From Dinghuibacter silviterrae (lineage in GTDB: Bacteria > Bacteroidota > Bacteroidia > Chitinophagales > Chitinophagaceae): DNA of 64,000 bases. The notes beneath the pieces were generated by a model that searched no databases, had not been told where the DNA came from, and worked only from the letters and a program-made list of their open reading frames with translations. Shown one piece after another: positions 9,060 to 57,725 of the stretch (positions are counted from its first letter, which is position 1; each line of letters opens with the position of its first letter). A program made the translations under genes and the position numbers. The stretch is from the NCBI RefSeq assembly GCF_004366355.1, contig NZ_SODV01000001.1, positions 930,001 through 994,000 on the forward strand, written 5' to 3'.

Positions 9060-9132
9060 GGTGCGGTAGCTCAGTCGGTAGAGCAAAGGACTGAAAATCC
9101 TTGTGTCGGCGGTTCGATCCCGCCCCACACCA
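9060..9132 (+). tRNA. tRNA-Phe (anticodon GAA)
   Basis: The sequence folds into a full cloverleaf: acceptor GGTGCGG with CCACACC, D-arm GCTC/GAGC, anticodon stem AAGGA/TCCTT with loop CTGAAAA (anticodon GAA), variable GTGTC, T-arm GGCGG/CCGCC with loop TTCGATC, discriminator A. No CCA is encoded. One oddity is a C5-A68 mismatch in the acceptor stem. A good terminator follows at 9142. Confidence 0.95.
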
Positions 9133-12614: not shown

Positions 12615-13325
12615 ATGCTTTTATCCATTATTATTCCGGCCTACAATGAAGAACGCACGATTACAACGATCCTGGAGAAGGTCGCCTCCGTGGCGCTGAT
12701 CCAGGATATTCGTAAAGAAATTATCGTGGTCAATGACTGCTCCAAGGACGGCACGGAAGGGGTGGTTCTATCCTATATAAATGCCCATCCGGCTGCCGGC
12801 ATCCGTTATGTCAAGCATGAGAAGAATGGGGGCAAAGGCGCGGCGATCCACACCGGCATCCGGGAAGCCACCGGCGATTATATCATTGTACAGGATGCCG
12901 ACCTGGAGTACGACCCTGCGGAATACAACATCCTTCTGAAACCCATTACCGATGGTTTTGCGGATGTGGTGTTCGGCAGCCGTTTTATGGGGGGCAACGC
13001 TCATCGTATTTTATTCTTTTGGCACAGCATCGGAAACGGCTGGCTGACCTTCCTCAGCAATATGTTTAACAACCTGAACCTGACCGATATGGAGACTTGC
13101 TACAAGCTCTTCAAAGCGGAACACCTGAAAAAGCTCGACCTCAAGGAAAAGCGCTTCGGGTTCGAACCGGAGGTCACGGCCAAGATCGCGAAGATTCCAA
13201 AGATCAGGATATACGAAGTAGGCATCTCCTATTATGGGCGGACCTATGAGGAAGGGAAAAAAATAAACTGGAAGGACGGTCTGCGGGCTTTGTATTGTAT
13301 CGTGAAGTATGGGCTGAGCAGCTAA
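12615..13325 (+). CDS. Family 2 glycosyltransferase, dolichyl-phosphate-mannose-synthase-like
   Basis: Starts [20 protein letters not shown], the GT-A donor-binding strand. '[10 protein letters not shown]' gives the second nucleotide-binding Asp, and '[13 protein letters not shown]' the DxD-type metal site. '[27 protein letters not shown]' and '[10 protein letters not shown]' are characteristic of polyprenyl-phosphate mannosyl/glucosyl transferases. No C-terminal transmembrane helices are present (236 aa), so it is the soluble, peripheral type. It likely transfers a hexose from a nucleotide sugar to a polyprenyl phosphate carrier at the inner face of the cytoplasmic membrane. Confidence 0.85.
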
Positions 13326-13367: not shown

Positions 13368-13412
13368 GTTGCGGCGGCGGACTAAATTGTCCGCTTAGTC
13401 CGCCGCCGCAAC
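13368..13412. repeat. Perfect 18-bp inverted repeat between convergent genes
   Basis: Left arm 13368-13385 (GTTGCGGCGGCGGACTAA), 9-base loop ATTGTCCGC, right arm 13395-13412, the exact complement. It abuts the stop codon of the minus-strand barrel gene and lies 42 bp after the plus-strand glycosyltransferase gene, so it probably acts as a bidirectional terminator or mRNA-3'-end stabiliser. There is no T-run. Confidence 0.8.
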
Positions 13413-14615
13413 TCAAAAGACTTCGCCCAGGTTTACCGCAAACCCACTGGAGCCGTCCATGCCGACTCCATAGTCTACACAGATATTGGCACCGGAGTGT
13501 TTATTAAGCTTTAACCGGATGCCGGCTCCGCATCCGGGCTCGATGGTATTGTAACGGGAAGCCAGGTTCCGTTTGAAGGACTCCGCATTACCAAAAACCA
13601 CTATCCCAAAAAGACCGTTCCGGGAAATCGTAAGGCGGTCTTCCACCTCCAGGTAAGTCATGTCGTTCCCGCGATAGCGGCCTTGTATGTACCCCCTGCC
13701 AGTATTGAAATTGTCGTCCCAGCCAGTGGAAGGAAGAAGCAGGTATGGCGTCTTCTCGCCGGCCGTCAGCCAGTTAAAGCTCCAGAGGGCAAGGATGTTC
13801 CGGTGATTCCTGGACAAGGAAAAATATTTCCGGAGGTCGATCTGCATCATCGTAAAATTGGCGTCGCTGCCCAGCCACGTAAAGCTGGGATGAAACACCA
13901 CGTTGGCATAAAATCCATTGTACGGGTTGACGGGGTTCGCCCGGGAATCGAAAACGACCCGCGCCGCCGGCCCCACGGAGGTTTCGGTTTTTGTAAGACC
14001 GTACTTTTGGAAACTGGTGACAATCCCCTGGGGCGGATCCACTTCCACGATGTTCCAGAAATAGTCGTAGTAAAAACCAAGCCCGGCGTATAGATTTTTG
14101 GCAACGGCCCTCAGGATCGAGGTGTGCAATTTTATGTAGGAAAAGTCAATGGTATACCCGTCGGAATATTGTGTATGCCCTCCCAGGCCAAAGGTGGTGG
14201 AGGGATATTTCATATACCGCCAGTCGGCGATGATGTTGTACTTGTTGCCCCTTGTCCAGATGTCGGCGACGATGGGGGCGATGATCTGGTTGTATTGGGA
14301 ATAGGTAATGCTGGTGGCTATGTCGGATATTTTGGCCAGCGAATCGCCGGTGGAAAAAGCAAGGTTATCGCTCAGCACGACGGCAAAACCTGTTTGCAGG
14401 GTGTAGCCTGCGGCGGGAAAAGGGGCATTATGAAATTTGCCCTCGTCCCGGCGCACGGTTTCCGAATTTCCGGCGACCCAATGATAGACATCGATCAGGT
14501 CTCTTTGCGGAGGATCATTTACCGTGTCAGCGTGTTTCAGGGAATCCACCGTCTGTCCAAAGCTCCGCCAGGGGAAAAGAAGAAGGTATAAGCAAAGAAT
14601 TATATACGTCCTCAA
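13413..14615 (-). CDS. Outer membrane beta-barrel protein, BamA/TamA (D15 surface antigen) C-terminal type
   Basis: The protein (400 aa) begins with a signal peptide (MRTYIILCLYLLLFPWRSFG, then Q). There is no POTRA domain; the rest is amphipathic beta strands such as 'YSQYNQIIAPIVADIW', 'GLGGHTQYSDGYTIDFSYIK' and 'NPYNGFYANVVFHPSF', and it ends in Phe (NLGEVF), the usual barrel-assembly signal. This fits the short D15-like barrels of Bacteroidota; function (transport, protein insertion or lipid export) is unknown. The start codon is a TTG: the only in-frame upstream codons run into a TAA nine bases before it, and no ATG exists near the signal peptide. Confidence 0.8.
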   Translation of the reverse strand: MRTYIILCLYLLLFPWRSFGQTVDSLKHADTVNDPPQRDLIDVYHWVAGNSETVRRDEGKFHNAPFPAAGYTLQTGFAVVLSDNLAFSTGDSLAKISDIATSITYSQYNQIIAPIVADIWTRGNKYNIIADWRYMKYPSTTFGLGGHTQYSDGYTIDFSYIKLHTSILRAVAKNLYAGLGFYYDYFWNIVEVDPPQGIVTSFQKYGLTKTETSVGPAARVVFDSRANPVNPYNGFYANVVFHPSFTWLGSDANFTMMQIDLRKYFSLSRNHRNILALWSFNWLTAGEKTPYLLLPSTGWDDNFNTGRGYIQGRYRGNDMTYLEVEDRLTISRNGLFGIVVFGNAESFKRNLASRYNTIEPGCGAGIRLKLNKHSGANICVDYGVGMDGSSGFAVNLGEVF

Positions 14616-14804
14616 GTTGGTAGTTTATATGTTATTTCTTCCTAATTTGTCGCGCGTTCGCGCACACCAGCTTTCGTAGGGAATATAGGACGATGTTCCT
14701 GCGCAAGGGTTTAGTGACGCAGGCTTTCCTTTTTGACGGAAAGTGCAATTTCTAAATTTTCTGTCTTCGTACCTTTAGCATTTTTGGTAAAAAATCCCCA
14801 AATA

Positions 14805-16160
14805 TTGTTTCGCAACTTCCATATTCAACTCCTCCTGCGGTACCTGCTGATCTCGGTCGTGCTGGCGGGGAGCGTCCTTTTGTTTGTATATACGGAGCTG
14901 TATTTCACCGCCTCCGCCCTTTTCCTCATCGCCGTGCTGCTGGGGTATGGTATCCAGCTGTATATGCGCCGCCTCGGCCGGGACATCGATCACTTTATAG
15001 AGGCGGTCAAGACCAGGGACCACGCGGTTTATTTCAGCCCCAAAAAATATGGAGGCCCCTTCCAGCGGCTTTTCCATTCCTTTAATGACGTCCTTCAAGC
15101 CCACAAGACGATCACTATCGAACGGGAGTCGGTTTTCCAGCTCCTGAAAAGCGTCATGGAACGGGCGCCCTTCGGGGTCATCACCGTCGCCAGGAACGCG
15201 CTGACGGATACGCAAGGCAAGTACCCCATCCTTTTTATAAACGCCGCCGCCTATCGCCTCCTGCAGATCCCCGAATACCACTACTGGTACCGGCTGGCTG
15301 CCCACGTGCCCGACTTTGTGCAGGAGATCCTGCCCATCACCTCGGGGGGCAAACGATTTACGGAAAAATTCATCAACGGGAGCAAGGTCCTCCTCTCCCT
15401 GGAAACGGAAGTCATCCGTCTTGTACAGGAGGAATACCTCATCATCACCTTCCAGGACATCAAAGAAGAAGTCGAGCAAAAGGAAATGGAGGCCTGGAAC
15501 AAACTCATAGAGGTCATGACCCACGAGATCCTAAACTCCATCACCCCCATCTATACCCTGGCGGGAACAGTAAAGGACATGATGGATGCGAAGGGGATGA
15601 ACCTGGATGCGGAAGACCTGGAAGACATGCGGCTCGCGGCGGGCACCATCAAACGGCGGTCGGACGGGCTCATGAACTTCGTACAAGACTACCGGATGGT
15701 GGCGGAAGTGCCCACACCCCAACTGGAACCCTGTACCGCGGAAGAGCTGTTCACCGGTATACGGACCCTGATGAAACCCCTGGCCGACCAGCAAGGCGTC
15801 GCCCTGGAAGTCGTTTCCCTCCCCGGGCGGAACCAGCTCCTCATCGACCTGAAGCTCATCGAACAGGTCCTGATCAACCTGATCACCAACGCGATCTACG
15901 CGACCAAAGAGCGGCCTCACCCGCGGATCCTGATCCAGCTCCGCAAGGAAGAGGAACGCTATTTCATCGACGTCATCGACAACGGGAAGGGCATACCGCC
16001 CGCGATCCTGGACAAGATCTTCGTCCCGTTCTTCACTACCCGTTCGAACGGGTCCGGGATTGGGCTCTCCATCTCCCGAAACATCATGAAGCTCCACAAA
16101 GGGAATCTCGACGTTTACTCCGTCGAAGGTCAGGAGACACGGTTCACACTGTCTTTCTAA
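14805..16160 (+). CDS. Membrane sensor histidine kinase, NtrB/NtrY-like
   Basis: Two N-terminal transmembrane helices ('LLLRYLLISVVLAGSVLLFVY' region and 'ASALFLIAVLLGYGIQLYM'), a ~110-residue PAS-like segment, then HisKA with 'VMTHEILNSITPIYTL' (His240 counted from the chosen start) and a HATPase domain with N-box 'QVLINLITNAIYATKE', 'DNGKGIPPAILDKIF' and 'GSGIGLSISRNIMKLH'. The frame is open to a TTG at 14733, but a near-consensus -7 element (TACCTTTA, 14770-14777) lies inside that extension, so the TTG at 14805 (reads L-F-R-N-F-H) is the likeliest start. No response regulator is adjacent; it is an orphan kinase here. The stimulus is unknown. Confidence 0.85.
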   Translation: MFRNFHIQLLLRYLLISVVLAGSVLLFVYTELYFTASALFLIAVLLGYGIQLYMRRLGRDIDHFIEAVKTRDHAVYFSPKKYGGPFQRLFHSFNDVLQAHKTITIERESVFQLLKSVMERAPFGVITVARNALTDTQGKYPILFINAAAYRLLQIPEYHYWYRLAAHVPDFVQEILPITSGGKRFTEKFINGSKVLLSLETEVIRLVQEEYLIITFQDIKEEVEQKEMEAWNKLIEVMTHEILNSITPIYTLAGTVKDMMDAKGMNLDAEDLEDMRLAAGTIKRRSDGLMNFVQDYRMVAEVPTPQLEPCTAEELFTGIRTLMKPLADQQGVALEVVSLPGRNQLLIDLKLIEQVLINLITNAIYATKERPHPRILIQLRKEEERYFIDVIDNGKGIPPAILDKIFVPFFTTRSNGSGIGLSISRNIMKLHKGNLDVYSVEGQETRFTLSF

Positions 16161-16201
16161 AACCGGTCCCGTCGCCTCCACTCTTGCCTCTAACGACGCC
16201 C

Positions 16202-16324
16202 GGGTGGTCCGAGGGGGGGGTAGGTCCATTTTACTTCTTTTCCGCAGAGGTTAAAAGCGCTCGCCGTCGTTCGGGTCTTCTGCGGAAAAGAAGTAAAATG
16301 GACCTACCCCCCCTCGGACCACCC
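16202..16324. repeat. Long hairpin element, copy 1
   Basis: Arms 16202-16248 and 16279-16324 are complementary over 46 bp with one extra G on the left; the loop is 30 bases. It lies between convergent genes (histidine kinase and flavin reductase). A second, diverged copy is at 56294-56406. All four arm differences between copies are compensated, and copy 1 carries a 5-bp insertion in both arms (GTGGT left, ACCAC right). The loops share TCGTTCG, five bases before the right arm. No transposase is nearby. It could be a MITE/REP-like element, a bidirectional terminator, or an RNA. Confidence 0.9.
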
Positions 16325-16360
16325 TAGCACGCCAAGGTGCAACGTCCCGCAAATAAACTC

Positions 16361-17242
16361 TCAGGGCGCCGCGAGCAGCACCTGCCAGGCGGCGGCGACG
16401 CGGCCCTCGGAGAGAAGCGTAGCGGCGTACCGGTGGAGTTCGCGTTCCATTTCGTCGGGGGAGACGCTGAAATAGAGGATGATGTTTTTTAAGCGATCGT
16501 CCTCGAAGGAAGGATCGATACGGGGGAACTCGTGGACGTTGGCCAGTTGGCCGAGTTGATTGCCTGTTAGAACAGTGCTTAACCGGATGGAGGGCGGAAG
16601 CGCATCCACGCCGATACCGGTGTGTATGTTGGGTTTCTCCACGATAATGAGATTGTCCGGGCGGACCGCCGAGTACCAGTCGCCGCCGAGGCGGGCGACG
16701 TGGTGGAGTTTGCGCTGGTCGATCATTCCTTTGTCGTCCAGGATCTCGTCGGCGATGTGCATGCACAGGACCTCGCAGATTACGAGGTTGCCGGCGCCGG
16801 GTTCGGAACCCAGCGACTTTACTTCTACAACGCGGCATTCGAGACGGACCTTACTCTCGCGAACCATCGGTGGTTTAACGCGCGTAGCGGGTTCTTCGGT
16901 GAAACCGGCTTTGAGGAATTCGTTTACGCCCCGGGGGTAGTCGCAGCTGGCAAGGCTTACCTGCTGGACCATGTCGAAGTCGACGATGTTGATGACGACT
17001 TCGGGGACCTCCAGGACGTTTTCAAGGGTGTGTTTGGTGGTGTTGTCCCGGACCCGGCGGGAGGGCGAAAACACGACGATGGGGGGCGTCGTGGAAAACA
17101 TATTGAAGAAACTAAAAGGGCTCAGGTTGACGTGACCGGAAAGGTTGACGGTGCTGGCAAAACAGATGGGGCGGGGTGCGATTGCGTGCTGGAGGTATTG
17201 CTGCCGCAGCGGGATGGATATGGACTGGAGGTCGACGAGCAT
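16361..17242 (-). CDS. Flavin reductase family (DIM6/NTAB) protein
   Basis: 293 aa, starts MLVDLQSISIPLRQQYLQHA, then 'IAPRPICFASTVNLSGHVNLSPFSFFNMFS', the FMN-binding region of the flavin reductase-like split-barrel fold; 'SPSRRVRDNTTKHTLENV' and 'CDYPRGVNEFLKAGFT' are further family positions. Binds FMN and may reduce a flavin, or be a flavoprotein component of an oxygenase. The gene starts one base after the stop of the upstream fumarylacetoacetase-family gene, so the two form an operon, consistent with degradation of an aromatic compound, though the pathway is not proven. Confidence 0.85.
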   Translation of the reverse strand: MLVDLQSISIPLRQQYLQHAIAPRPICFASTVNLSGHVNLSPFSFFNMFSTTPPIVVFSPSRRVRDNTTKHTLENVLEVPEVVINIVDFDMVQQVSLASCDYPRGVNEFLKAGFTEEPATRVKPPMVRESKVRLECRVVEVKSLGSEPGAGNLVICEVLCMHIADEILDDKGMIDQRKLHHVARLGGDWYSAVRPDNLIIVEKPNIHTGIGVDALPPSIRLSTVLTGNQLGQLANVHEFPRIDPSFEDDRLKNIILYFSVSPDEMERELHRYAATLLSEGRVAAAWQVLLAAP

Positions 17243-55090: not shown

Positions 55091-55419
55091 GGATGGAGCC
55101 GCAGGACGATATTATACAATGGCTCCAGGGCAGCATTCCAGTACCTGTACCAGTGACCAGGACCGCGGAAGAGCTCATGGCCTGGCTGACCACGTATTGC
55201 AACGGCCTTCTGGTCGCCGATTTCCCGGCCCTTGTTCAACTCCTGTACCGCGTAGACGTATCCGAAGCGAAACTCAAATACCTGCTCAAACATTCAGATG
55301 GAGAGGATGCCGGGAGGATTATGGCGCTGCTCCTGCTGGAGCGCGTCGGGCAGGTCGTCGCCGCACGCAAAAAATACCGGATGCCCGACCAGGACATCCC
55401 GGAAGAAGATAAATGGTAA
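55087..55419 (+). CDS. Hypothetical helical protein (110 aa)
   Basis: Starts MRMEPQDDIIQWLQGSIPVP and is predicted mostly helical: 'TRTAEELMAWLTTYCNGLLVADFPALVQLLYRVDVSEAKLKYLLKHS' and 'GRIMALLLLERVGQVVAARKKYRMPDQ'. I do not recognise a family. It overlaps the stop of the TIGR02757 gene (ATGA) and reaches into the start of the SDR gene. Confidence 0.6.
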   Translation: MRMEPQDDIIQWLQGSIPVPVPVTRTAEELMAWLTTYCNGLLVADFPALVQLLYRVDVSEAKLKYLLKHSDGEDAGRIMALLLLERVGQVVAARKKYRMPDQDIPEEDKW

Positions 55420-55424
55420 CAACT

Positions 55425-56237
55425 ATGTCGACACCCATCCTGTTCATCACGGGCGCGAGCCGCGGCATCGGCAAAGCCATCGCGCTGAAAATGGCCGCCG
55501 GTGGCGCCCGCATCGCCATCGCCTCCAAAACAGAAACACCCCACCCCAAGCTGGATGGGACCATCTATACGGCTGCCGAAGAGATCGAGCGTGCCGGGGG
55601 ACAAGCCCTTCCCCTGGTCTGCGACATCCGCGACGAGGCCCAGATCAACGCGGCCGTGGAAGCCACCGTTGCCAAATTTGGCGGGATCGACATCCTCGTC
55701 AACAACGCCAGCGCCATCAGCCTCTCCAAAACACCCCAGACCGAGGCCAAACGCTTCGACCTCATGCACCAGGTCAACGTCCGTGGGACGTTCCTCGTGA
55801 GCAAGGCGTGTATCCCGCATTTGGCGCGAAGCAGCAATCCCCATATCCTCACCCTCGCCCCCCCATTGAACCTCGATCCCCGCTGGCTGGGCGCCCATCT
55901 CGCCTACACCCTCAGCAAATTCGGCATGAGCATGGTAGCCATGGGCCTGGCGTCCGAACTCGCCCCCGAAGGCATCGCCTCCAACACCCTCTGGCCCCGC
56001 ACCACGATCGCCACCGCGGCCGTCCTCAACCTCCTCGGCGGCGAAGCCCTCGCCTCCATGAGCCGCACCCCCTCGATCGTCGCCGATGCCGCCGCCCTCA
56101 TCTTCTCCCGCCCTGCCCGCACCTTCACCGGTCAACACCTCATCGATGAGGACCTACTCCGCGAGTCCGGCCTCACCGACTTCACCTCCTACGCCGTCGA
56201 CCCCTCAAAACCCCTGGCTCCGGATATATTCCTCTAA
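55425..56237 (+). CDS. SDR-family oxidoreductase, HSDL2-like
   Basis: 270 aa from the ATG at 55425 (MSTPILFITGASRGIGKAIAL); an in-frame ATG at 55413 would add four residues. The Rossmann motif TGASRGIG, the 'DILVNNASAIS' loop and the 'YTLSKFGMSM' catalytic Tyr-x-x-x-Lys are all present. The C-terminal 'IASNTLWPRTTIATAAVLNLLGG' block and the 'ARTFTGQHLIDEDLLRESG' tail are typical of HSDL2-type (hydroxysteroid dehydrogenase-like 2) proteins, which act on unknown acyl or steroid alcohols. It precedes a convergent hairpin element (56294-56406). Confidence 0.88.
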   Translation: MSTPILFITGASRGIGKAIALKMAAGGARIAIASKTETPHPKLDGTIYTAAEEIERAGGQALPLVCDIRDEAQINAAVEATVAKFGGIDILVNNASAISLSKTPQTEAKRFDLMHQVNVRGTFLVSKACIPHLARSSNPHILTLAPPLNLDPRWLGAHLAYTLSKFGMSMVAMGLASELAPEGIASNTLWPRTTIATAAVLNLLGGEALASMSRTPSIVADAAALIFSRPARTFTGQHLIDEDLLRESGLTDFTSYAVDPSKPLAPDIFL

Positions 56238-56293
56238 CCTCATAACCTCATGACCTCTGCCCTCTAACCTCTAGTCCCCAAGCCTGATTGCCC

Positions 56294-56406
56294 GGCCGAG
56301 GGGGGGTATGTCCATTTTACTCCTTTTCCTCAGGGAACCGAAACGTTTTGGCATCGTTCGAATCACCTGAGGAAAAGGAGTAAAATGGACATACCCCCCC
56401 TCGGCC
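56294..56406. repeat. Long hairpin element, copy 2
   Basis: Perfect 41-bp stem (56294-56334 with 56366-56406), loop of 31 bases. It lies between the convergent SDR and CNNM-type genes. It shares with the copy at 16202 the arms, the loop TCGTTCG (five bases before the right arm in each), and the outer flanks GCCCGG...CCTAGC. Copy-specific bases change on both arms together. It carries no coding sequence of its own apart from a start-codon-like pattern noted in the findings. Confidence 0.9.
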
Positions 56407-56462
56407 TAGCGGCATGGTTTGTTCTCAAAGTAGAGTTATAGGCATGTTGCGGTCAGGACCAG

Positions 56463-57725
56463 TTACTTCAGGATTTTGAGCTTCACCATCTCGATCCGGG
56501 TATCGGAGACCTGGAGGACATCGAACTCGTAGTGGCCGATGATGATCCGTTCCTTGGGTTTGGGGATCGTTTCGTATTCGTTGATGATGTAGCCGGAGAG
56601 CGTTTCTGATTCGTTTTCGGGGAAGTCGAGGTTGTATTTTTCGCGGAGGTAGTCGAGTTCGAGACGGCCGGAAAAGATGTATTCGTCTTCGGCGATTTGT
56701 TTGTCGACGAATTCCTCGGTATCATATTCGTCCTGGATTTCGCCAAAGATTTCTTCGAGGAGGTCCTCCATGGTGACGATGCCGGAGGTGCCGCCGAACT
56801 CGTCCACGACCCAGGCGATGCTCTTCCGTTCCAGCGTGAATTTATTGATCAGGTCGGTGACGCTCATGGTTTCGGGGACGGCGGGGATCGGCAGCAGCAC
56901 CGATTCTATGTCTTTTGGCTCTTTAAAAAGGTCCAGCTGATGGATGTACCCCTGGATGTTGTCGATGTTTTGTTCGTAGACCACCAGTTTGGATAGCTGA
57001 CTATCGACAAACTTCCGACGCACTTCTTCGATAGGGGTATTTTTTTCTATCCCTTCTACTTCCCGCCTCGGCACCAGGCACTGGCGGACGCGCATGGACG
57101 GGAGGGACAGGGCGTTTTCAAAAAGTTCCTTGTTGAGCTCCTGCATGCCGTTTTCGTCGGAGGCCTGTTCGCTTTGCTGGATAAAGTTGTCCAGGTCCAC
57201 CCTGCCGAAAAACTCCTTGTGTTCGGTGGTACGGACGTCAAAAAGGTATTTGAGGGACCATTCGCTTACAAACACAAAAAATGCAGCGATCGGGTAGAGC
57301 AGACCGTAAAAGAAACGAAGAAGCCGGGCAAAAAACGGGAGGATATAGTCCTTTTTGGCGCGGAATATGGCCTTGAACAGGAATTCGGTCAGCAGGAACA
57401 AAAGCGTCGCCAACAGGGATTCGAAAAGGAGCCGTACGTAGGGACCCTGGGCGATCTCCGGAAGCCGTTTCCAGACTGGTGATAAAAAACGGTCCACCAA
57501 AAGGGTATATATAACCACGATAATGCTCAAGGCTACCACCAGTGTCGCCACCAGCTTGGTGGGTGCTTCCAGGAAACGGGACAGGATCTTTCCGCTGGTC
57601 AGCCCTTGTTTTTTCTTTAGTTCAATGGAAAGCTTGTTGGCCGACGTAAAGGCCATTTCTATCCCTGCAAAAAAACCGGTTAGCAAAAGGGAAATGGCGA
57701 TGCCGATGATGTAGGATACATCCAT
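56463..57725 (-). CDS. CNNM/CorC-type transporter-associated protein with CBS domains
   Basis: 420 aa. N-terminal CNNM (DUF21) region with about four transmembrane helices: 'GIAISLLLTGFFAGIEMAFTSANKLSIELKKKQG' is its signature. Two CBS domains ('MRVRQCLVPRREVEGIEKNTPIEEVRRKFVDSQLSKLVVYEQNIDNIQGYIHQLDL' and 'FTLERKSIAWVVDEFGGTSGIVTMEDLLEEIFGEIQDE') and a C-terminal CorC/HlyC domain ('GRLELDYLREKYNLDFPENESETLSGYIINEYETIPKPKERI') follow. Proteins like this move or sense Mg2+; in Bacteroidota a related GldE protein assists gliding, so GldE is an alternative. Near-consensus promoter just upstream. Confidence 0.88.
   Translation of the reverse strand: MDVSYIIGIAISLLLTGFFAGIEMAFTSANKLSIELKKKQGLTSGKILSRFLEAPTKLVATLVVALSIIVVIYTLLVDRFLSPVWKRLPEIAQGPYVRLLFESLLATLLFLLTEFLFKAIFRAKKDYILPFFARLLRFFYGLLYPIAAFFVFVSEWSLKYLFDVRTTEHKEFFGRVDLDNFIQQSEQASDENGMQELNKELFENALSLPSMRVRQCLVPRREVEGIEKNTPIEEVRRKFVDSQLSKLVVYEQNIDNIQGYIHQLDLFKEPKDIESVLLPIPAVPETMSVTDLINKFTLERKSIAWVVDEFGGTSGIVTMEDLLEEIFGEIQDEYDTEEFVDKQIAEDEYIFSGRLELDYLREKYNLDFPENESETLSGYIINEYETIPKPKERIIIGHYEFDVLQVSDTRIEMVKLKILK

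Follow-up and report, generated by a model that had tools for sequence, protein, structure and literature searches.

A dispersed family of long intergenic hairpins in Dinghuibacter silviterrae whose arms are probably kept identical by DNA copying between them

The genome examined here carries at least 36 copies of a long hairpin with a stem of 36–48 bp, wherein the two arms of each copy match almost perfectly despite extensive divergence between one copy and another. We consider it likely that these hairpins constitute a lineage-restricted palindromic element resembling MITEs and REPs, the arms of which are kept identical by DNA-level copying from one arm to the other (template switching), with the loop being flipped by the same process. 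Two representatives reside in the window, which is the entire 64,000-nucleotide stretch that was analysed and which corresponds to positions 930001–994000 of contig C1 in this 6,497,175-base genome (G000; 4 contigs, ~6.5 Mb). The second of these two copies is referred to below by its contig position, C1:986294.

A sequence-only reading of the window had reported near-perfect stems of 46 and 41 bp for these two copies, and both were confirmed by refolding and by shuffle controls. The stem of copy 1 (16202–16324) consists of 46 bp plus one unpaired G located within a G8/C7 run, and the 41-bp stem of copy 2 (56294–56406) is perfect. Folding z-scores are −12.7 for copy 1 and −14.7 for copy 2, and equally stable structures were obtained from none of the shuffled sequences (0/200). 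The same reading listed arm differences that are matched on the opposite arm (TAGG/CCTA versus TATG/CATA, CTTC/GAAG versus CTCC/GGAG, CGCAG/CTGCG versus CTCAG/CTGAG, and AGA/TCT versus AGG/CCT), and all of these are evident in the DNA, as are the GTGGT/ACCAC block carried on both arms of copy 1 only and the TCGTTCG sequence that is common to both loops near the right arm. The core motif, when allowed up to three mismatches, occurs four times in the 64-kb window (two arms in each of two copies) versus 0.01 occurrences expected. The sole match to an Rfam RNA family above the gathering score in a scan of the window was a tRNA at 9060–9132, with none at the hairpins. The features of both loci are collected in Table 1.

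Table 1. Coordinates of the two window hairpins, their tails and their flanking genes
Feature	Positions in window	Strand	Remarks
Sensor histidine kinase gene flanking copy 1	14784..16160	+	ends toward the element; start by gene caller; longest ORF from 14733
Copy 1, left tail	16161..16201	.	stop codon to stem; 20 nt between the orthologous gene ends in G001
Copy 1, left arm (47 nt)	16202..16248	.	stem analysis
Copy 1, loop (30 nt, class A)	16249..16278	+	loop classification
Copy 1, right arm (46 nt)	16279..16324	.	complements left arm except one extra left-side G
Copy 1, right tail	16325..16360	.	stem to stop codon; same G001 comparison
Convergent gene flanking copy 1, without NCBIfam match	16361..17242	-	
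SDR family oxidoreductase gene flanking copy 2	55413..56237	+	
Copy 2, left tail	56238..56293	.	inner part GGGCAATCAGGC, read outward, common to C1:1046725 and C1:620790
Copy 2, left arm (41 nt)	56294..56334	.	
Copy 2, loop (31 nt, class A)	56335..56365	+	inverted relative to its own tails versus sister copy C1:1046725
Copy 2, right arm (41 nt)	56366..56406	.	perfect complement of left arm
Copy 2, right tail	56407..56462	.	inner part TAGCRGCATGGTTTGT..., common to C1:1046725 and C1:620790
CNNM/GldE-like membrane protein gene, convergent, flanking copy 2	56463..57725	-	

A BLAST search of the genome with copy 1 returned 29 match rows at 16 places, and a covariance model was built from these 16 copies. 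The search with this model, a check that had been recommended when only the two window copies were in view, gave 72 rows at 36 places among the best 150 of 1777 candidates that were scored; the variation among the resulting hairpins preserves pairing. A broad pattern for the core produced 44 forward matches, 36 of which are the same hairpins and eight of which were left out as chance (the control count was 5). Moreover, a de novo inverted-repeat scan of 40 regions recovered the 36 family copies at a score of at least 35 along with five other hairpins, four having 18–21-bp arms and one having unrelated 32-bp arms; note that 30 of these regions contain a copy, nearly all having been picked for that reason. 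As 150 of 1777 candidates were scored, the number of copies is given as a lower bound, and it may miss some imperfect copies, since 20 of the 36 came from a model or a pattern biased toward paired arms.

Two more long hairpins of like layout were encountered in 17 further 20-kb regions of C1 that hold none of the 36, and both are kept outside the family count and the stem-pair count given below. One, at C1:1237007, has 34-bp arms and a loop of 56 but no core motif. The other, at C1:708341 (L162:8341–8453), has a 41-bp stem with three mismatches and a class-A-like loop start, and we regard it as a diverged relative that may have escaped arm correction. The remaining hairpins in these regions have arms of up to 27 bp. 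Overall, the family probably has more than 36 members.

The most conspicuous characteristic of the family is the contrast between identity within copies and divergence among them. Only four of 1455 stem pairs (0.27%) are mismatched in the 36 copies, these being transitions in four different copies, such that 32 stems have no mismatch whatsoever, whereas left arms compared copy to copy differ on average at 19.3% of aligned positions. Copy 1 contributes 35 of its 46 pairs to the total, as counting ends at the G8/C7 bulge, and its length difference is thus not among the four mismatches, each of which reads as C-A on one strand and as G-U on the other. Among the 16 copies recovered with BLAST alone, which is blind to pairing, one of 672 pairs is mismatched.

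Covariation is correspondingly strong. In the 16-copy alignment, both sides have changed in 32 of 49 pairs, and 90 cells are changed on both sides, compared with 24.2 after shuffling and no more than 15 once the partner is slid. The equivalent values for the 36-copy alignment are 343, 97.1 and at most 65. Changes on one side only occupy 22 cells of this larger alignment, and 19 of these fall in four loop-proximal pairs where the stem is already over in many copies. Indels of 1 bp are likewise present on both arms. For example, C1:986294, C1:1046725 and C1:620790 share both inner tails and are distinguished by a substitution and a 1-bp indel, each of them paired across the arms. Arms that stay alike within a copy while the copies drift apart suggest that one arm has repeatedly been rewritten from the other. 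The core sequence CTTTTSC is retained in each of the 72 arms, which partly reflects the use of a similar pattern to find the copies.

The sequences on either side of the arms behave differently. Loops fall into two classes and range from 17 to 35 nt. Read outward from the end of the stem, the first base beyond one arm is G and that beyond the other is T in 31 of 36 copies (33 of 36 have exactly one T), and this mismatch assigns a polarity to each copy. The sequence at the stem boundary varies, yet the edge of arm identity seems to be fixed. Loop orientation, as judged by similarity to four reference loops, agrees with tail polarity in 17 copies and opposes it in 16, with three unassigned; given that this similarity is weak in some copies, a recount was made with clear-score copies only, which gave 14 same, 12 opposite and 2 unassigned. 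Inversion is clear in the sister pair C1:986294 and C1:1046725. Because the arms are identical, a flip of the loop only and a flip of the loop together with its arms look the same.

Tails begin with TAGC/GGG, TGAGACA/GGGCAA and similar sequences. The left and right tails of the same copy have an identity of 0.453, versus 0.444 between copies and 0.412 for shuffled sequences; thus they are unlike each other outside the stem and serve as an internal control. To the right of C1:1046725 (locus L081), the outer end of the right arm and the tail are repeated in tandem beside the element, which indicates that tails too undergo slippage or duplication. By eye, the right tails of C1:1046725 and C1:759030 and the left tail of C1:2314987 look tandemly duplicated. 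A search for an autonomous partner carrying the same tail, wherein the tail pattern was allowed up to three mismatches, gave 38 + 56 matches versus 42 + 64 in the control and hence no enrichment, and three matches away from known copies (C1:2540118, C1:1051778 and C1:1619766) revealed no hairpin at the threshold used.

All 36 copies are intergenic according to genes called by a simple codon-score script, with 22 in convergent, 13 in tandem and 1 in divergent gene gaps. By comparison, the sampled regions contain 120 element-free gaps measuring 120 bp or more, of which 15 are convergent (Fisher p = 2e-8 versus element gaps) and 45 are divergent (p = 1.6e-5). Convergent gaps that contain an element measure 190–355 bp (median 230.5, n = 22), versus a median of 15 for those that do not (n = 89), and the stem edge is located a median of 57 nt from the 3' end of a gene. 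Since a preference for convergent gaps is described as general for bacterial stem-loops (PMC1590033), we draw no special support from this bias. The copies are also concentrated along the chromosome, with 29 of 36 in the first 2.4 Mb of C1 (0.18–2.4 Mb, a cut selected post hoc) and few in the remainder of C1 and in C2. GC skew in the sampled regions, considered with a view to a link with the replication origin, is weak.

A genome of the same genus (G001) is syntenic at both window loci. As read from the sequence, the gene ends at the first locus are 20 nt apart in G001 versus 200 nt here, and at the second locus they overlap in G001 versus 225 nt here. These two orthologous gaps are therefore element-free in G001, although the main matches between the genomes are at 66–73% DNA identity, which is too low to read a target duplication, and the comparison carries no outgroup polarity with respect to insertion versus deletion. 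The tails of copy 1 probably belong to the inserted unit. A 256-kb sample of G001, including runs of N, contains no hairpin with arms longer than 22 bp. More broadly, the covariance model at its 16-copy stage found no match under strict filters in 58 relatives, and a later model found none under strict filters in 395 other genomes of the order when the best 9 candidates per genome were scored; these two samples overlap, and diverged relatives could be missed by such searches. The proposal that the hairpins represent a new dispersed element of this lineage is thus borne out. Both the 16S sequence and the GldE-like neighbour of copy 2 point to Bacteroidota as the host group. Two exact-pattern scans of viral contigs gave 0 matches, and four loci of other organisms (L023–L026), each with one arm-like match in genome contigs, were taken as chance. 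A search of open-licence papers uncovered no description of this hairpin family.

The sequence-only reading remarked that no transposase is nearby, and this agrees with the families listed for 10 window proteins compared with NCBIfam, none of which is a transposase. It also raised a link to a RAYT-type gene, which is unsupported given that the Y1_Tnp domain (PF01797) has 0 matches in G000, with 5 of 14 control genomes positive. Membership among RAYT-driven REPs was rejected on the same grounds. The genome-wide search for mobility functions covered this domain and RVT_1 (PF00078), which likewise has 0 matches in G000 (3 of 14 controls positive) and whose absence leaves an origin as a retron msd or other RT-derived hairpin unsupported. 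Neither a mobilising enzyme of these two types nor a target duplication was found.

How template switching might generate these patterns can be outlined as follows. A dispersed non-coding palindromic element, for which we infer a unit length of ~190 bp, would settle at the 3' ends of genes, mostly in convergent gaps. Its middle band, formed by two 36–48-bp arms and a ~30-nt loop, would be held as a near-perfect inverted repeat because one arm is copied from the other. In the course of replication, a nascent strand may fold back or switch to the other arm or strand, copy it, and then return, which would erase mutations confined to a single arm or spread them to both arms, and would at times invert the loop. 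Such switching would be continuing rather than occurring only at birth. The element presumably spreads by transposition in the manner of MITEs or REPs with the aid of some enzyme, present or lost, and its effect on the cell would be passive, such that transcripts from both convergent genes may terminate within a stable hairpin or continue through it.

We favour template switching at the DNA level because the arms are nearly perfect, because changes are paired with hardly any intermediates, because the loop occurs in both orientations, and because the tails are unmatched. In yeast, template switching is reported to yield both arm homogenization and spacer inversion (PMC8604942), and a second study, which found loop inversions to be rare and short, proposes that perfect RNA stems and compensatory changes originate from it (PMC8794818). 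The hairpins described herein likewise combine homogenised arms bearing paired substitutions with spacer inversion. The length of the loops counts against this explanation, as ~30 nt is long relative to the spacers or loops inverted in template-switch studies. Specifically, inverted spacers in yeast coding genes are given as only 2–5 bp in a report whose authors note selection against long ones (PMC8604942), and inverted rRNA loops are typically 4 nt, with some of 7–8 nt (PMC8794818). Furthermore, C1:708341 retains its three mismatches, which also counts against this explanation, and since only one strain is represented, concerted change is deduced across copies and not from one locus over time. 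The loop is not homogenised and its length is held within the observed range, implying that something limits the copying. Whether rewriting between the arms far outpaces their mutation, which would make nearly every copy a near-perfect cruciform-forming unit with a freely flipping loop, or whether the replication cycle proceeds via a hairpin template, is a more speculative matter, and we regard such an extension as tentative and slightly more apt to be wrong than right.

Compensatory change is usually regarded as strong evidence for a selected RNA fold, and the sequence-only reading had offered either fold selection or copying of arms as the cause of the paired differences. Were selection responsible, convergent genes would transcribe both strands of the element, and compensatory mutation would maintain a hairpin that ends, protects or insulates transcripts. 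The strong representation of convergent gaps, with only one copy in a divergent gap, and the proximity of the stem edge to gene 3' ends are consistent with such a role, as are predicted folds of −114 to −128 kcal/mol at both window loci on either strand. All four mismatches also form G-U on one of the two strands, and if both strands must fold then G-U would be disfavoured on one of them, meaning that the scarcity of wobble pairs is not fully decisive. Regardless, a 40-bp stem should tolerate single mismatches or wobbles far more often than is observed, and GT pairs are reported to be frequent in the stems of GTAG repeats (PMC3733652), unlike here. The occurrence of the loop in both orientations also speaks against a selected fold. 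Nor do the stems qualify as canonical intrinsic terminators. In the 12 nt past the stem, no T run on any of the 72 sides exceeds 4, a length reached on a single side, and a terminator scan restricted to loops of 3–8 nt found no terminator-like site at either window stem. An intrinsic bidirectional terminator was consequently rejected, since the combination of a GC-rich hairpin and a T run on both strands was not found. By eye, T-run hairpins are present beside some copies. With the difference of 0.27% within versus 19% between copies, the two loop orientations and the unmatched tails all favouring copying, the part of the earlier proposal that invokes selection is less supported, and we judge that RNA-fold selection is unlikely to be the main explanation. 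Selection on the RNA fold in addition to arm copying is possible, as convergent genes would transcribe both strands.

Perfect arms might instead be a property of birth. If each new copy arises via an intermediate, either single-stranded or folded back, whose one arm serves as the template for its other arm, then it begins as a perfect hairpin, and all present copies need only be young. The predominance of stems without mismatch and the finding that, at the two loci checked, the element occupies a site where the G001 gene ends lie 20 nt apart or overlap are as expected under this scenario. However, few one-arm mutations imply youth while copies differ greatly, the arms diverging by 19% on average, and this makes birth without later correction less likely, because it would call for numerous independent masters that had already diverged, or for copying of very low fidelity. 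The lack of an RVT_1 or Y1_Tnp domain in the genome also weighs against it, and we consider this origin quite unlikely. A protein-bound DNA palindrome, serving as a nucleoid, replication or recombination site and selected for symmetry at the DNA level, would be compatible with a core that is present on both arms of every copy (a partly search-driven result), with the regular G/T mismatch where the stem ends, and with the clustering of copies in the first 2.4 Mb of C1, where the cut was chosen after looking. Binding sites, however, rarely demand exact symmetry over 40 bp when the sequence itself varies freely, and this seems to us a very improbable account.

Several known systems share characteristics with the family. 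Like REPs and BIMEs (GTAG- and CGTC-tagged), the copies are dispersed, intergenic and palindromic, occupy convergent and tandem gaps, and exhibit complementary stem changes (PMC3733652). That study describes REPs of 20–40 bp and GTAG stems mostly of 6–9 bp that often include GT pairs, with GTAG repeats being tied to RAYT transposases and CGTC repeats apparently lacking one. In contrast, the current family has far longer stems with practically no wobble, shares no common GTAG or CGTC tag by eye, and resides in a genome where no Y1_Tnp domain was found; thus the positional distribution fits REPs and the size and tag do not. The copies are also short, multi-copy and intergenic in the manner of MITEs and of the enterobacterial RU elements, which span 103–168 bp and are described as MITE-like (PMC2759123), but neither terminal repeats nor a target duplication nor a parent transposon could be identified, and the perfect inverted repeat lies inside the element.

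Quasipalindrome correction and template switching provide a mechanistic likeness, as they entail homogenization of arms and inversion of a spacer or loop (PMC8604942, PMC8794818). The cases presented in these two papers are isolated events that affected yeast genes, microRNAs and rRNAs and inverted short spacers, whereas here both signatures are carried by a dispersed family with long arms and much longer loops. Coding palindromes in Nematomorpha mitochondria also resemble the family in having long inverted repeats, the majority of those longer than 30 bp being perfect, with arms that change in concert; these occur in animal mitochondrial coding genes and are not presented as one dispersed family in the portion of the source at hand (PMC6649704). 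The same source mentions Rickettsia palindromic elements, which are transposable, palindromic and bacterial but whose repeats are said to become less identical with time, contrary to the pattern observed here, a comparison made by description only. It also cites inverted repeats in Proteobacteria as being actively maintained in bacterial genomes (PMC6649704).

If the arms are indeed maintained by template switching, then the family would serve as a natural genome-wide reporter of this process, and the presence of at least 36 sites in one genome would permit the rate and tract length of switching to be measured in a bacterium. The family also offers a caution for RNA discovery based on covariation. 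Despite strong covariation, the near lack of mismatches and wobbles, the two orientations of the loop and the unmatched tails point to DNA copying.

Several hairpins outside the family were observed in the course of the analysis. In the window, an 18-bp hairpin with a 9-nt loop (13368–13412, arm GTTGCGGCGGCGGACTAA) is located between convergent genes at 12615–13325 and 13413–14549, and it has a near-identical counterpart at C1:1438446; possibly it is a repeated bidirectional terminator. The unrelated hairpin at C1:3503466 (L101:3466–3556) is a perfect 32-bp stem with a 27-nt loop in a convergent gap, and its outer ends read TTTTTTGCGCC.... Lastly, symmetric hairpins at L153:16583–16643 and L159:10217–10279, with 26–27-bp arms starting ATTTTTTTTG, have the look of bidirectional intrinsic terminators.
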